Assembly: GCA_030429045.1 (NCBI GenBank)
Contig: JAUIEA010000002.1
Span: forward strand, 62,001-126,000
Reading direction: 5' to 3'
Source of the DNA: Bacteroidia bacterium
GTDB taxonomy: Bacteria; Bacteroidota; Bacteroidia; Chitinophagales; Saprospiraceae
DNA length: 64,000 bases
Positions 22,712 to 28,675 of this stretch are shown piece by piece. A program made the position numbers and the translations under genes. Position 1 is the first letter of the stretch. Each line of letters starts with the position of its first letter. The notes beneath the pieces are model-generated. The model had not been told where the DNA came from. It saw nothing but the letters and a program-made list of their open reading frames with translations, and searched no databases.

Positions 22712-23398
22712 TTAAACCAGGAGTTCCACCTCGCTGACACGTCGTTTGAGCAGGGTCCGGAAATAAAAGCCGGCCAGGAAGCCAAATCCGAAGCCGCCGA
22801 TATGTGCCCACCAGGCCACTCCCCCGGTATCCAGGTCCACGGTGCTGATCGCCCCTACGCCGGAGATGGTCTGCTGCAGGATCCAGATGCCCAGAAAGAG
22901 AAAGGCAGGAATGGATGCGGAGGTAAAAAAGATCAGGATCAGTACCTTGATCCGGGATGCGGGGAACATCACCAGATAGGCGCCCAATACCGCTGAGATA
23001 GCTCCACTGGCACCCACAGCCGGCACAATACTCTCCGGATTGAAGAGGGTATGCGCGACCCCGGCAATGATCCCACCCAGGAGGTAGAACAGGAGGAAAC
23101 GCCAGGGACCAATGGTCGCTTCTATATTATCGGCAAAGACCCACAGAAACAGCATATTGCCGATCAGGTGCATCAATCCTCCATGCAGGAACATGCTGGA
23201 TCCCAGGGTCCACCAGTCCTGGCCATGGTTGATCTCCCGGGGAATGGAGCCATAGGTCGTGTAGAAGGAATTGATCCCTTCCGGTGGGATCATCATGAAC
23301 ATAGCCGCAAAGACGACGATATTGGCGGCAATGAGAGAGTAGCTGAATACGGGGCGATCGCCCCCGACGACCTGGTCATCACCTATAGGAAAGATCAT
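22712..23398 (-). CDS. Rhomboid-family intramembrane serine protease
   Basis: A 228-residue protein with six or seven membrane helices. Rhomboid hallmarks: WWTLGSSMFLHGGLMHLIGNM (loop 1 and helix 2), the nucleophile in AVGASGAISAVLGAY, and the catalytic His in WWAHIGGFGFGFLAGF. It cleaves membrane proteins within the bilayer; the substrate is unknown. The start at 23398 gives a short hydrophilic N-terminus (IFPIGDDQVVGGDRP) as in relatives. The hairpin-repeat array starts just upstream of the gene. Confidence 0.93.
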   Translation of the reverse strand: MIFPIGDDQVVGGDRPVFSYSLIAANIVVFAAMFMMIPPEGINSFYTTYGSIPREINHGQDWWTLGSSMFLHGGLMHLIGNMLFLWVFADNIEATIGPWRFLLFYLLGGIIAGVAHTLFNPESIVPAVGASGAISAVLGAYLVMFPASRIKVLILIFFTSASIPAFLFLGIWILQQTISGVGAISTVDLDTGGVAWWAHIGGFGFGFLAGFYFRTLLKRRVSEVELLV

Positions 23399-23454: not shown

Positions 23455-24545
23455 GATTGCCAGTGGTAGGCTGGATTCCTGCCTGCCAGCCGGAGGCTGG
23501 ATTCCTGCGTTTGCTCCCCCGAGAACTCGGGGCTGGTTCCTGGTTCCTCGGTCCTCGGTCCTCAGTCCTCGGCCCTGATTCTGCTTTTGAACTAACCTTA
23601 GTTAACAAAATAATTTTGGTGTTGGTGCCGGTGTCTCACCGGCAGCGCAAGATGTGCCGCTCCTTACATCTCTTCCTTGGAGTAATATATTCCCTTTTGT
23701 CACCCCCTCTCCTTCCTCGGGAAGGAGAGGGGGCCGGGGCCTAGACGATGGCCCCGACCACTCAGGGCCATGTCTGGATCCGGATATCCCGCTGAAGCGG
23801 GATCGTCCGGAGGTGAGGTTAAACCATGAACCACCAAGTAATCAGATCGCCACTGCGATCGGGACGGCGGCTAAAGCGCGCCGATACGAATAGCTGTATC
23901 TCGGGACCTTAAACTTTTTGACGCCGGTGCCGGTGTCTCACCGGCAGCGCAAGATGTGCCGCTCCTTACATCTCTTCCTTGGAGTAATATATTCCCTTTT
24001 GTCACCCCCTCTCCTTCCTCGGGAAGGAGAGGGGGCCGGGGGGTGAGGTTAAACCATGAACCACCAAGTAATCAGATCGTCGCTGCGATCGGGACGGCGG
24101 CTAAAGCGCGCCGATACGAATAGCTGTATCTCGGGACCTTAAACTTTTTGACGCTGGTGCCGGTGTCTCACCGGCAGCGCAAGACGTGCCGCTTCAATCT
24201 TCACTTTTCATGGAAGATCATCTGGGGCGGTGTCTCACCGCCTGGCAGTCTTTCTGTATGATTCTGGGCGCACTGAAGGCGTGATTGCGTTATTGCGAAG
24301 TAGGGGATTGAAGTTCCTCGGCCCTGGGCCCTGATTCTGCTTTTGAACCAACCTTGGTTAACATAAAAGTTATTGGTGTTAGTGCAGGTGTCTCACCGCC
24401 TGGGCCTTTCTTCAGGTCGTAAGTCAATTGGAACGCAGTTCGTTTCCAGGGTGTCCACCCCCGTCTTTTATCCTGACCTCCGGCCAGGATAAAATCCACC
24501 CCCGCCAGCGGGGGACAAGAACCATCCCCATAATGATAAGGGGTA
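23455..24545. repeat. Hairpin repeat array A (about 1.1 kb)
   Basis: A non-coding array built from hairpins. The anchor hairpin TGCCGGTG-tct-CACCGGCA occurs at 23626-23644, 23928-23946 and 24158-24176, giving units of 302 and 230 bp. Inside the units are a 14-bp perfect stem (23703-23733 and 24005-24035), TCCCGC-tgaa-GCGGGA and GATCG...CGATC stems. Flanking pieces add CCAGCC-gga-GGCTGG, CCCCGAG-aa-CTCGGGG, AACTAA-cc-TTAGTT, GGCGGTG-tct-CACCGCC (24226-24242) and TTTTATCCTG...CAGGATAAAA (about 24468-24493). ORFs across it are accidental. The rest of the gap up to 24648 shows nothing further. Confidence 0.92.
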
Positions 24546-24648: not shown

Positions 24649-26223
24649 ATGAAAGCGATATGGATCGTTGTGACGGCCATCCTTTGTGTGTCTTTTCCAC
24701 ACAGGAGTCATGCTCAATTGAAGTTGGGAATGGACAGCCTGTTCAATTTGGTTGATGATGGCGATTTCAGCGAACCGTGCCTGAGAGAGGAAGTCTACAT
24801 GCCGTACAACTTCGAGAGTGAAGGGCACAACAATTCACCGGACATGGTGGTCTTCCGGGAGGATTCTACGGGAGGGCAATTGTATTGGGATGAGTTTGGC
24901 TGTCTAAAGGATCGATACTTTCTCCCTTACCTTCCCCTACATTATGCCTGTTGCCGAACCAGGCAGGAACCACCCATTCCACCCGCCTATTCCGGTCATA
25001 ACTATGCCTGCCTGATCCGGGAACCTATGGTGAATGAAGCCCTTGTCTACAAACTCAAAGCTCCTATTCATCCCGGCCAGCCCTACCGGGTCACTTTTGC
25101 TGCCCGGGCCATGAGCCCTTTCTGCCCGCGTCCTTCCATTCGGGTGTCCGTCAGTTCCACTGAGCCCTGCCGGCAAAAGGTGAATAGCCTGAACGACCAA
25201 GAGACAACCCAATGCTGGAGGGGACTCACATTTACCCCAACGACTATTTTCCAATCGGATACAATCGGATTGTCCTGGACGCCCTTTGAACAGATCCAGA
25301 TCGCTTCGGATACCCTGAAATGGATCATCTTCAGTCCGGGACCAGTGGATACGACTGACGGACTGCCCTATCTGGGCATTGATGATATTCAGGTAAATCT
25401 CCTCCCCATACCCACAGTGGTGTCCACCCCCGTTCATCAGCATCTACTCGGTGAAGAACAAGAGTGGACGATCACCTTTCGAAACCCCTATCCACTGGCC
25501 ATCAGCCAATATCCCATCATCCTCTATCCCGATGACAAACTGGCACTGCTACACTGTGCCGGTATGGACACGATGTTTTCGGATGGCGGCATTCGGGTAT
25601 TGGTGGATATCCCGGAGGGAACGGCAGCACATCCGGCCGAAGTCCACACCACATTCACCTGGCGCTGCCTGTCCGAATGTCCTCTGCGCAGCCAGCTGGT
25701 CCTCGGTCAGATCGCAGGTGATTTGTGGCCTTACCGTCTGGAGATCAGACAACCGGATCCGTCGCCGATCATCTACATTCCCGATTCGACCCTGTCACTG
25801 TTGGCTGCCATTCAAAAAGGGCTGCTCCCAGCAGATTCGATCCAGGGACAGGAGATCTTTCTGAATGGAGATTTTATCCTGAATGCCCCGACATATCGGT
25901 TTGTCGATTGCCTGATCCGGGTCAGGTGGGGTTCACAATTGATCGTACCGCCCGATCGATCGGTCTCCCTGATCCGTACCGAGTTTCGTGGCTGTGGTCA
26001 ACCCTGGGAAACCATCCGGATCATGAAAGATGGCAAGATCTATCTCGAGGACTCTTTGATCCGGGAGGCGAAAAGCGCCCTGCTCTGCCGGCCAGGATCC
26101 TTTATCCGCATGCGCGGTTCTGATCTGCGTGGTACAGAAATGGATGTGGAAATGGAAAAAGACGATCCCTTTTCGGAAATTGAAAAAACAACCAAACGGA
26201 ATAAGAACCAGCGTGAAAAATGA
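24649..26223 (+). CDS. Exported protein between repeat arrays, probably truncated
   Basis: A protein of 524 residues with signal peptide MKAIWIVVTAILCVSFPHRS and cleavage near HAQL. Residues 30-245 look like a carbohydrate-binding-type beta-sandwich region of Bacteroidota surface proteins (VDDGDFSEP at the start, YLGIDDIQVN at the end). Then comes an Ig-like segment (about 255-370). From about 400 the text resembles the first turns of a right-handed beta-helix (EIFLNGDFILNAPTY ... RFVDCLIRVRWGSQL ... KIYLEDSLIREAKSAL). It ends abruptly in a charged tail (EKTTKRNKNQREK) without a T9SS sorting domain. The repeat array begins at the stop codon, so the C-terminus was probably replaced. Function unknown. 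Confidence 0.78.
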   Translation: MKAIWIVVTAILCVSFPHRSHAQLKLGMDSLFNLVDDGDFSEPCLREEVYMPYNFESEGHNNSPDMVVFREDSTGGQLYWDEFGCLKDRYFLPYLPLHYACCRTRQEPPIPPAYSGHNYACLIREPMVNEALVYKLKAPIHPGQPYRVTFAARAMSPFCPRPSIRVSVSSTEPCRQKVNSLNDQETTQCWRGLTFTPTTIFQSDTIGLSWTPFEQIQIASDTLKWIIFSPGPVDTTDGLPYLGIDDIQVNLLPIPTVVSTPVHQHLLGEEQEWTITFRNPYPLAISQYPIILYPDDKLALLHCAGMDTMFSDGGIRVLVDIPEGTAAHPAEVHTTFTWRCLSECPLRSQLVLGQIAGDLWPYRLEIRQPDPSPIIYIPDSTLSLLAAIQKGLLPADSIQGQEIFLNGDFILNAPTYRFVDCLIRVRWGSQLIVPPDRSVSLIRTEFRGCGQPWETIRIMKDGKIYLEDSLIREAKSALLCRPGSFIRMRGSDLRGTEMDVEMEKDDPFSEIEKTTKRNKNQREK

Positions 26224-27115
26224 GTCGTGATTGCGTTATTTCGAAGGAAGGGGATCGAATTTCCTGGTTCCTGCCAGCCGTAGGCTGGGTTCCTGATTCC
26301 TGCGTTCCTGATTCCTGTGTTTGCTCCCCCGAGAACTCGGGGCTGGTTCCTCGGTCTTCGGTCTTCGGTCTTCGGTCCTCGGCCCTGATTCTGCTTTTGA
26401 ACTAACCTTAGTTAACATAAAAGTTATTGACGCTGGTGCCGGTGTCTCACCGGCAGCGCAAGACGTGCCGTTCCTTACATCTCTTCCTTGGAGTAATATA
26501 TTCCCTTTTGTCACCCCCTCTCCTTCCTCGGGAAGGAGAGGGGGCCGGGGCCCAGACGATGGCCCCGACCACTCAGGGCCATGTCTGGATCCGGATATCC
26601 CGCTGAAGCGGGATCGTCCGGAGGTGAGGTTAAACCTTGAACCACCAAATAATCAGATCGTCGCCGCGATCGGGACGGCGGCTAAAGCGCGCCGATACGA
26701 AAAGCTGTATCTCAAGACCTTAAACTTTTTGACGCCGGTGCCGGTGTCTCACCGGCAGCGCAAGACGTGCCGTTTCAATCTTCACTTTTCATGGAAGATC
26801 ATCTGGGGCGGTGTCTCACCGCCTAAACAGTCCTTCATCATGATTTTGGGGCGCACTGAAGGCGTGATTGCGTTATTGCGAAGGAGGGGATTGAAATTCC
26901 AGGTTCCTGCCAGCCGTAGTCTGGGTTCCTGATTCCTGCGTTTGCTCCCCCGAGAACTCGGGGCTGGTTCCTGGTTCATCAGTCCTCGGTCCTCGGTCCT
27001 CAGTCATCGTCCTTGATTCTGCTTTTGAACTAACTTTAATTCACACTAAAAAAATGGTTTTGGTGCAGGTGTCTCACCGCCTGGTCAGTCTTTCTAAATA
27101 AAATCAGTGCGAGCT
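26224..27115. repeat. Hairpin repeat array B
   Basis: A second copy of the array, in the same orientation. It starts directly at the stop of the upstream gene with GTGATTGCGTTATTTCGAAG. Then come the GCTCCCCCGAGAACTCGGGG block, AACTAA-cc-TTAGTT (26400-26413), a full 302-bp unit between anchor hairpins at 26437-26455 and 26739-26757 (14-bp stem at 26514-26544), GGCGGTG-tct-CACCGCC at 26807-26823, a second CCCCGAG-aa-CTCGGGG block near 26947, a decayed AACTAA-ct-TTAATT copy and a last partial CAGGTG-tct-CACC hairpin near 27066. Confidence 0.92.
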
Positions 27116-27703
27116 GAAGGCGTGATTGCGTTATTTCGATATTGCGTGATTTCGAAGGAGGGGGAATGAAGTTCCAAGTCAGAGCAGGCGCTCTGACGTT
27201 CAAGGTTTAACGTGACCATATATCTTCCAGTTTGGACACTGATCAGGCGTTATTCAACAAGCTTTAAAACGTGGGATGTCCCCCTCCCAGAATACGTCCA
27301 AAACCGGAGACAAAGACTTTCATGAGGGGGTGGTTTGGCGACGGAATGATGTCATGGAGGATCACCTCAAGCGCGCCAAACCGGGGGAGGCAGAGTATTA
27401 TTGGCTCCTCCATTCCTGATTCCTGGTCAAACTTCGGGTTGAGCATTAACCTAAATCTTCTGGCTCCTTGAATATTGGCTGAGCCGTTCAACATGTCAGG
27501 AAGGAATCGCCGCAGCTTCTGTTCAAAGTTCAACACGAGGTACACTAAGTGTTGAATGGCCAAAACCAAACCAGCTAAATAACCATTGACAATCTGGAAT
27601 CAGGAACAATCCCGCATACGTGCGGGATGCAGGAATAAGGAACAGTCCAAAAGCCCACTAATGCGCATCGTTTCAACCTGGAATCCAGACGACGTATAAA
27701 CAA
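27116..27703. other. Spacer without recognised gene
   Basis: A 588-bp stretch between array B and kdsD. It starts with the phrase GGCGTGATTGCGTTATTTCGA, shared with other repeats of the window. Positions 27240-27570 contain an open minus-strand frame of 101 codons without similarity I recognise; it could be the remnant of a lost gene. A hairpin CCCGCA-tacg-TGCGGG lies at about 27611-27626. Nothing else is seen. Confidence 0.5.
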
Positions 27704-28675
27704 CTAGATGATCCCCTCTCGAATGAGGTCGTGCAGATGGATCATGCCCACGTACTCGGTGCCCTTGCAGACCGGTATCTGGGTAATATTGTGCGACCGC
27801 ATCACCTCCAGGGCGTGGACCGCCAGGTCGTCGGCCTGGACGGTTTTGGGGAGGGGGGTCATGATCTGTTCAGCGCAAAGATGTTTGGTGTTGTGTTCCT
27901 TTTCCAGCATCCGGCGCAAGTCTCCATCGGTAATGATGCCGATCGGAATACCCTCCTCCAGGACGACGGTAGCCCCCAGTCGCTTGGAGGTCATTTCCAG
28001 GATGGTTTCGCGAACCGTACTTTCTTTCTGGACAGCCGGACATTCATTGAGGGGATACAGGTCCCGTACCCGCAGGTAGAGTTGTTTGCCCAATGACCCT
28101 CCGGGATGGAAACGGGCAAAATCCTGGGGGGAAAACCCCCGCTGGTCCAGCAGCGCCGTCGCCAGGGCATCACCCAGGGCCATCTGAGCAGTCGTACTGG
28201 TGGTCGGGGCCAGATTGTTGGGGTCCGCTTCCTGGCTGACCGGGGTGAGCAGGACCAGATCGGCCTGTCGGGCGAGATAGCTGTCCGGCTGTCCCACCAT
28301 ACCGATCAGGGCCTTCACCCGATTCTTCAGGAGGGGCAGTAATACTTTGATCTCTGGTGTCTCGCCACTTTTGGACAGGCAGAGTACGGCATCATCCGAA
28401 CGGATCATCCCCAGATCGCCGTGGATGGCATCCGCAGCATGCATAAACAGCGCCGGCGTACCGGTGGAATTGAGGGTAGCTACGATCTTCTGACAGACAA
28501 TGGCACTCTTGCCGATACCGGTCACCACCAGCCGTCCGGGCAGACCCAGGATCAAGGTGACCGCCTGCACAAAATCATCATTCAAACTGGCCTTCAGATC
28601 GATCAGGGCACGCGCTTCGATGTCCAGCGTTTTTTGTGCAATTTCCAGAATCCGACCTTTCATTTCTTCCTTCAT
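27704..28675 (-). CDS. kdsD: Arabinose-5-phosphate isomerase (KpsF/GutQ family)
   Basis: A 323-residue enzyme that converts ribulose 5-phosphate to arabinose 5-phosphate, the precursor of Kdo in LPS. An N-terminal SIS domain (about 35-170) shows VVTGIGKSAIVCQKIVATL and CLSKSGETPEI with the active-site HAADAIHGDLGM. The FARFHPGGSLGKQL motif follows at about 200. Two CBS domains occupy about 210-323 (IGIITDGDLRRML, MRSHNITQIPV). The ATG at 28675 is used; a second in-frame ATG four codons on is possible. It is divergent from recQ across a 171-bp spacer. Confidence 0.95.
   Translation of the reverse strand: MKEEMKGRILEIAQKTLDIEARALIDLKASLNDDFVQAVTLILGLPGRLVVTGIGKSAIVCQKIVATLNSTGTPALFMHAADAIHGDLGMIRSDDAVLCLSKSGETPEIKVLLPLLKNRVKALIGMVGQPDSYLARQADLVLLTPVSQEADPNNLAPTTSTTAQMALGDALATALLDQRGFSPQDFARFHPGGSLGKQLYLRVRDLYPLNECPAVQKESTVRETILEMTSKRLGATVVLEEGIPIGIITDGDLRRMLEKEHNTKHLCAEQIMTPLPKTVQADDLAVHALEVMRSHNITQIPVCKGTEYVGMIHLHDLIREGII

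Follow-up and report, generated by a model that had tools for sequence, protein, structure and literature searches.

REP elements tagged with GTAG form short hairpins whose unpaired foot is conserved; most are intergenic, and they cluster near a gene for a REP-associated tyrosine transposase (RAYT). Families with alternative complementary stem residues have been reported among them (PMC3733652, PMC8266576). The enzymes of E. coli and Stenotrophomonas are strand-specific on single-stranded REPs, loop bases can be critical, and changes or mismatches in the stem alter REP activity to varying degrees (PMC8266576). Among the RAYTs, subclass 2.6, which corresponds to group 5 of Bertels and colleagues, occurs mostly in Bacteroidetes and carries the motifs NH[LIV]H, WQ, and YIH[QN]NP; its flanking repeats were identified by manual inspection and described as atypical, without GT[AG]G and with further genomic copies (PMC6006769). 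CGTC-tagged REPs are found in Bacteroidetes among others, with loops of 4-5 nt and stems of 8-9 bp, and their authors found no flanked transposase gene (PMC3733652). The IS200/IS605 elements are also related, with hairpins at both ends, recognition of a single strand, and a guide sequence at the foot of the hairpin (PMC6006769, PMC8266576). RAYT-repeat recognition and the joint change of repeat and enzyme have been studied in a few proteobacterial models.

The window analyzed here is the whole stretch of 64,000 nt (positions 62001-126000 of contig C99) from the draft genome of a Saprospiraceae bacterium (4.27 Mb, 256 contigs), hereafter the source genome. An earlier note on this DNA had described strings of hairpins at 23.5-24.5 and 26.2-27.1 kb, and both were recovered. 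Array 1 (23455-24545) contained 14 non-overlapping perfect hairpins with stems of at least 6 bp (mean 1.6 and maximum 6 in 100 first-order Markov resamples), and array 2 (26225-27180) contained 10 under the same criteria (resample mean 1.5, maximum 6). The density of perfect hairpins in the remainder of the window was 2.0/kb on average. An ORF of 524 aa (24649-26223) lies between the two arrays. Judging by the translations, the genes that border them on the outside are rhomboid-like (22712-23398) and sugar-phosphate isomerase-like (27704-28675).

The anchor element of the arrays is a same-strand doublet in which hairpin H1 is followed by the shorter hairpin H2, both built around the core GGTG-tct-CACC (GGTGTCTCACC). 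In H1, the foot G-Y-T carries a stem of about 10 bp closed by the loop tct. The features of the two arrays are as follows.

23621..23646, + strand: H1 hairpin copy 1, with foot GTT, arm GGTGCCGGTG, loop tct and arm CACCGGCAGC
23923..23948, + strand: H1 hairpin copy 2, foot GCC
24153..24178, + strand: H1 hairpin copy 3, foot GCT, upstream half of an H1-H2 doublet
24226..24242, + strand: H2 hairpin GGCGGTG-tct-CACCGCC, downstream half of the doublet
24378..24403, + strand: solo hybrid, H1-type left arm and H2-type right arm at a shared core, arms non-complementary
26432..26457, + strand: H1 hairpin of array 2, foot GCT
26734..26759, + strand: H1 hairpin of array 2, foot GCC, upstream half of a doublet
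26807..26823, + strand: H2 hairpin of array 2
27059..27084, + strand: solo hybrid of array 2, H1-type left and H2-type right
23866..23887, + strand: module GGCGGCTAAAGCGCGCCGATAC, copy 1, GTAT foot on the minus strand
24096..24117, + strand: module GGCGGCTAAAGCGCGCCGATAC, copy 2
26677..26698, + strand: module GGCGGCTAAAGCGCGCCGATAC, copy 3
23775..23808, + strand: hairpin ATCCCGCT-ga-AGCGGGAT
26586..26619, + strand: hairpin ATCCCGCT-ga-AGCGGGAT of array 2
24466..24494, + strand: hairpin TTTTATCCTG..CAGGATAAAA, followed by CCCCCGC-ca-GCGGGGG at 24499-24514
23590..23603 and 26400-26413, + strand: hairpin AACTAA-cc-TTAGTT, with AACCAA-cc-TTGGTT at 24346-24359 and a broken copy within 27023-27044
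23703..23733, 24005-24035 and 26514-26544, + strand: 14-bp hairpin CCCCCTCTCCTTCC-tcg-GGAAGGAGAGGGGG
23517..23532, 26327-26342 and 26948-26963, + strand: hairpin CCCCGAG-aa-CTCGGGG, dispersed in the genome

The anchor core was present in 57 exact copies in the source genome, compared with 1 for the reversed control. Across 119 genomes, the source genome included, it was expanded in three of the five genomes of the genus, namely the source genome, G001 (15 copies) and G002 (60 copies), while the other two were at background (1 and 0) and all remaining genomes had 0-2 copies. Array 1 as a BLAST query matched 71 places in the source genome. In addition, a 302-bp unit was duplicated locally (23616-23915 and 26427-26726, 95% identical), and unit copies across the two arrays were 95-96% alike. 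Among the loci examined for hairpin copies, which amount to about a tenth of the source genome and parts of G001-G003, the 14-bp CCCCCTCTCC hairpin (up to 5 mismatches) and the GATCG-n6-CGATC hairpin (up to 6 mismatches, three copies) were found in the window only; the region of the CCCCCTCTCC hairpin had partial BLAST matches elsewhere in the source genome. Local duplication is thus superimposed on dispersed elements. The case that the earlier note had set against itself, copies found only here as recent tandem duplications, fails for the anchor, but among the loci examined the GATCG hairpin, a part of the 302-bp unit, had copies in the window only.

Loci of three species provided 150 cores with at most one mismatch, of which 59 were classed as H1. 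These cores made up 41 doublets, 19 with a core-to-core spacing of 14-18 nt and 22 with a spacing of 55-59 nt. Neighboring cores no more than 80 nt apart were on the same strand in 48 cases and on opposite strands in 11. The H1 classifier demanded a Y-T foot, so foot counts on that set are biased; when counted without this condition and without the H1 class definition, the G-Y-T foot was present in 35 of 38 distinct upstream members from 47 same-strand pairs. Fifty of the 59 H1 copies lay between ORFs, 3 were inside mechanical ORFs and 6 lacked a flanking ORF on one side. The GTAG or GTRG tetranucleotide was not found at the hairpin foot, whose sequence is G-Y-T, and the doublet does not have the two inverted REPs of a BIME or REPIN, although inverted pairs of doublets do occur at one locus (L083). 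An H1-type left side is joined to an H2-type right side in several solo copies, including those at 24387 and 27068 in the window, and this structure suggests that such hybrids arose by deletion between two cores. A triple hairpin H1-H2-H2 was observed on the minus strand at L083 (5100-5180), suggesting that the H2 copy number may change by slippage or recombination between cores. Some contigs of the draft assembly (L009, L014, and L053) end within about 300 nt of these repeats, so the true number of copies may be higher than counted and the assembly could lack a cognate RAYT.

H1 and H2 were analyzed separately for compensatory change, and this replaced a pooled analysis of all cores because mixing the two classes by itself yields an association. 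In 45 distinct H1 copies, outer pair 1 was Watson-Crick in 34 (18.8 expected) and pair 3 in 37 (24.9 expected), and in 36 distinct H2 copies pair 2 was Watson-Crick in 25 (13.9 expected). The cells of the outer six positions were paired in 199 of 270 cases for H1 (shuffled-arm mean 170.3, maximum 184, none of 5000 shuffles as high) and in 97 of 216 for H2 (shuffled mean 82.1, with 7 of 5000 shuffles equally high), figures that ignore the kinship of copies and so are not formal probabilities. Slid registers of the arms gave less pairing than the true register in both classes. Pairs 2 and 4-6 of H1 pair without covarying, and many outer pairs of H2 are unpaired.

Other hairpins of the arrays changed in a similar manner. 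In the ATCCCGCT hairpin, 9 copies of which were found, one outer pair was G:C in 5 copies, including both window copies, and A:T in 3 copies, and the remaining copy (L031) had a mismatch there. The TTTTATCCTG..CAGGATAAAA hairpin at 24466 corresponds to TTATATCCTGAC..GGTCAGGATATAA in the orthologous position of G002 (L082) and to TTTTAACATGAC..GTCATGTTAAAA in L017, with paired arm changes in each case, and a more distant copy in L045 behaves likewise. The examples given in the earlier note were weaker. It had reported the change from AACTAA-cc-TTAGTT (23590, 26400) to AACCAA-cc-TTGGTT (24346), which is as stated; this is a single compensated event, and the note omitted the broken copies, that is, the mismatched arms of the fourth window copy (27023-27044, AACTAACTTTAATT) and of more distant copies in L011 and L019. 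With their cores aligned, TGCCGGTG-tct-CACCGGCA and GGCGGTG-tct-CACCGCC do differ by a C:G to G:C swap, but these are paralogous hairpins of one element and not alleles. The stem of GATCG-n6-CGATC was indeed constant in all three copies, and the hairpin was rejected as evidence of covariation because a stem that never varies is uninformative on compensation. Paired change of the stem arms is nevertheless real and extends beyond the window locus, as seen in H1 and H2 and in the ATCCCGCT and TTTTATCCTG hairpins. The interpretation in the earlier note, selection or copying acting on folded RNA or single-stranded DNA, is partly supported.

A search with PF01797 in the four other genomes of the genus identified a divergent gene on contig C14 of G002, within a cluster of anchor cores. 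It codes for a protein of 204 aa, for which the curated RAYT model (cut-off 80) gave 102 bits and the IS200 model (cut-off 55) gave 24.5 bits. On the strand of the gene, a degenerate H1 lies about 100 nt before it and an H1-H2 doublet about 20 nt after it; both sides also have intact inverted doublets within 200 nt. Copies of the GGTG-tct-CACC family thus flank a RAYT, in G002 only. The protein has the motifs NHIH, WQ, and YIHQNP, which agrees with the motifs, the phylum and the flanking repeats without GT[AG]G of subclass 2.6 (PMC6006769), and probably belongs to this Bacteroidetes subclass (group 5). The assignment is probable and not settled because the HuH-Y spacing of 87 is nearer to the median of subclass 2.4 (88) than to that of subclass 2.6 (82) (PMC6006769). 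The spacing was 82-87 in homologues with both motifs seen, and several of 30 homologous loci lacked one subclass 2.6 motif in the aligned stretch or had other residues. A PDB sequence search with the protein gave no matches at E 0.001. We saw no full-length element in repeated copies that encloses a transposase between an H1 and an H2, and G002 has a single RAYT with this family.

At E 0.001, no homologue of the G002 RAYT was found in the source genome, G001, G003, or G004, so the link of the family to a RAYT comes from one gene. Doublets are nonetheless present in the source genome and G001. The anchor copies of the source genome therefore look orphaned, or their cognate RAYT is missing from the assembly.

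The earlier note was correct that the window contains no REP-associated transposase. Searches of the source genome found Y1_Tnp genes only on contigs C7, C73, C175, and C136, and matches to the RAYT model only on C2, C7, and C136. The search for such a gene elsewhere in the genome, which the note had proposed, identified a RAYT-like gene on C2 with 62.4 bits in the genome search and 64.8 bits as a protein, both below the curated cut-off of 80. The GCTAAAGCNCGCCGATAC module has two copies upstream and one copy downstream of this gene. With up to one mismatch, the source genome contains six copies of it, three at the C2 gene and three in the window arrays, and the latter lie in the duplicated unit and are non-independent; G002 has two copies with one mismatch each. 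Outside the arrays, the 18-base core of module GGCGGCTAAAGCGCGCCGATAC was found in the source genome only around the C2 gene, and copies of the GCTAAAGC module flank this gene, whose score is below the cut-off. This division of the six GCTAAAGCNCGCCGATAC copies means that the arrays contain a module otherwise marking a RAYT-like gene of the source genome.

The four Y1_Tnp genes of the source genome were rejected as the source of the anchor hairpins. Their flanks bear other palindromes, as seen in a hairpin scan of C7 and C136 and on visual inspection of C73 and C175. The IS200 model gives their Y1 domains higher scores than the RAYT model does, and the absence of a homologue of the G002 RAYT from the source genome (E 0.001) also argues against them. 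The C136 gene is followed, after about 500 nt, by a divergent doublet that was judged coincidental. At least three of the four IS200-like genes (L064-L067) are near repeated palindromes, for example CCCAGGGTTTTAACCCTGGG, CCCCTACGGGGC, and CCCCGGGTTTCACCCGGGG. The Y-motif of the four, as read from the translations, resembles that of subclass 1.2, which is tabulated as without REPs (PMC6006769). A RAYT-like gene of G004 (L201, contig C50; 36.5 bits, below the cut-off) was observed among TCAAATT-tccag-AATTTGA repeats, a palindrome unrelated to the families of the window.

At E 1e-8, a search of 396 genomes from the order found homologues of the G002 RAYT in 185. Thirty of these loci were used to form a loop rule, a T-N-Y triloop or its complement, and 40 further loci served as a held-out set. 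T-N-Y triloops on either strand accounted for 65 of 67 triloop hairpins in the first set and 55 of 56 in the second (randomized flanks, mean below 1), counts that exclude loops with complementary ends; before this exclusion the first set gave 64 of 72. The stems of these hairpins were diverse, with 32 and 34 distinct stems in the two sets, and 20 of 30 and 20 of 40 loci (40 of 70) had at least one T-N-Y triloop hairpin within 350 nt on either side. Hairpins with 4-nt loops, which fall outside the triloop rule, were also enriched (11 vs 1.8 and 35 vs 1.6). In 280 background segments of the source genome, 11 of 20 triloop hairpins had T-N-Y loops, indicating that part of the loop bias is non-specific. 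The doublets at homologous RAYT loci were mostly on the same strand. Of the H1-like hairpins, 27 of 32 and 22 of 33 (49 of 65) had the G-Y-T foot precisely at the base of a 10-bp stem, compared with 5 of 28 and 4 of 22 other hairpins. This rule was formed after the doublets of all 70 loci had been viewed, and the second set does not count as held-out for it. At two offsets on either side, G-Y-T occurred in none of the H1-like hairpins.

The H1-like class in the foot test scored G-T as pairing, which the count of G.T against A.C avoids. At stem positions 7-10, the 50 foot-selected hairpins had 36 G.T and 2 A.C, uncorrected for the base composition of the arms, and 57 other hairpins without the foot had 27 G.T and 17 A.C. 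Such an excess of G.T on one strand is the asymmetry expected if one strand acts in the folded form.

The most likely mechanism behind these patterns is a RAYT that would bind the folded single strand, reading the foot, the loop and the pairs next to it by base and the outer stem mainly as a duplex, by analogy with the E. coli and Stenotrophomonas enzymes. A stem mutation would then persist or spread once the partner base changes too, and this requirement would lead to paired changes in the stem arms. In E. coli, a regular stem in place of the natural bulge of the REP abolished activity (PMC8266576), so pairing is not always what the enzyme reads. A more specific proposal, for which we consider the chances evenly divided, is that this RAYT group shares a code: a G-Y-T foot, a stem of exactly 10 bp and a T-N-Y triloop, followed by a shorter T-N-Y hairpin on the same strand. 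The loop and foot would be read by base and the stem by shape, and at a distance of about 7-8 positions from the loop G.T would be tolerated or preferred. The doublet would act as both ends of an IS200-type element in miniature, and joint rewriting of the arms would give rise to new families. The left and right end hairpins of IS200/IS605 elements lie on the same strand.

Taken as a whole, the arrays are best explained as BIME-like mosaics in which REP-type elements of at least two RAYT systems were thickened by local duplication, the anchor being served by a RAYT that reads a folded strand, and we hold this explanation to be likely. It accounts for the dispersal of the anchor, its restriction to the genus, the flanking of a RAYT, the covariation of the arms, the loops and feet recurring at homologous RAYTs and the excess of G.T on one strand, all of which were observed. 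It would involve binding, cleavage, and transposition by the enzyme, and the loss or non-assembly of the cognate RAYT of the source genome. As the studied members of this kind of system act on folded single-stranded DNA, it also supports the reading of the earlier note in kind.

The hairpins might instead be conserved as parts of transcripts, such as mRNA stabilizers, terminators or small RNAs, with paired changes keeping RNA stems intact. The predominance of G.T over A.C on one strand (36 vs 2) would be expected for RNA as well, and the same inference was drawn from G-T pairs in GTAG repeats (PMC3733652). However, the H1 copies showed no clear strand bias relative to genes: apart from the 3 inside mechanical ORFs and the 6 lacking a flanking ORF on one side, 15 were in convergent, 14 in divergent and 13 in co-directional positions, and 8 were directed against both genes. 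The window had no Rfam match at the gathering score, and the direct flanking of transposase genes is not predicted by an RNA role, which we regard as unlikely.

Replication template switching between the arms, known as quasi-palindrome correction, would change both arms without selection, and has been proposed as a source of multibase compensatory changes (PMC8794818). The perfect arms of the arrays fit this process. On the other hand, it would not be expected to favor G.T over A.C on one strand, nor to keep loop and foot constant across unrelated stems. As the full cause of the pattern, template switching seems improbable to a similar degree, yet it may supply the double changes on which recognition then acts. 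Mere local tandem duplication with paired changes arising by chance would suit the similarity of the array copies, the window-only GATCG hairpin among the loci examined and the single compensated event of the TTAGTT hairpin, but is very improbable overall and is refuted for the anchor, which lies on many contigs and in sister species with its arms covarying there.

Under the RAYT-based explanation, the kind of system is already known, and what appears to be new at the sequence level is the T-N-Y triloops on diverse stems, the G-Y-T foot on a 10-bp stem and the same-strand doublets at RAYT loci. The G-Y-T foot differs from the GTAG foot of the tagged REPs. The longer type of anchor often seems to have GACG before H1, which is CGTC on the opposite strand and recalls the CGTC-tagged REPs. 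For the repeats of subclass 2.6, we found no consensus in the account of these REPtrons by Quentin et al. 2018 (PMC6006769), and a foot, a stem length, a triloop, and a same-strand doublet are proposed here. In the open-licence literature, we found no description of this foot-stem-loop consensus or of the same-strand doublet; Table S1 of PMC6006769 may list related motifs. The main text of PMC12306157 has no word beginning with "compensat" or "covari". The Bacteroidetes RAYT group with "atypical" repeats thereby gains a testable consensus. If the consensus is true, it could link the repeat families of many genomes with the enzymes that serve them, and recognition of a folded single strand would explain compensatory change in DNA repeats without an appeal to RNA function.

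The locus itself differs between related species. In G001 the flanking genes are 277 nt apart, with no core hairpins or intervening ORF, and in G002 the same interval is 4.2 kb long and contains the ORF, but its doublets are not the same set. Other orthologous intervals differ too. Clean insertion junctions were sought at the orthologous intervals and none were found, the intergenic sequence being too diverged; the comparison shows turnover but not precise insertions. Heptad runs (such as TTCCTGN, TTCCTCA or TCGGTCC) border hairpins in the window (23500-23580, 26270-26390, and 26900-27010) and at L158 (2700-2760). The G001 interval, though without core hairpins, retains such heptads.
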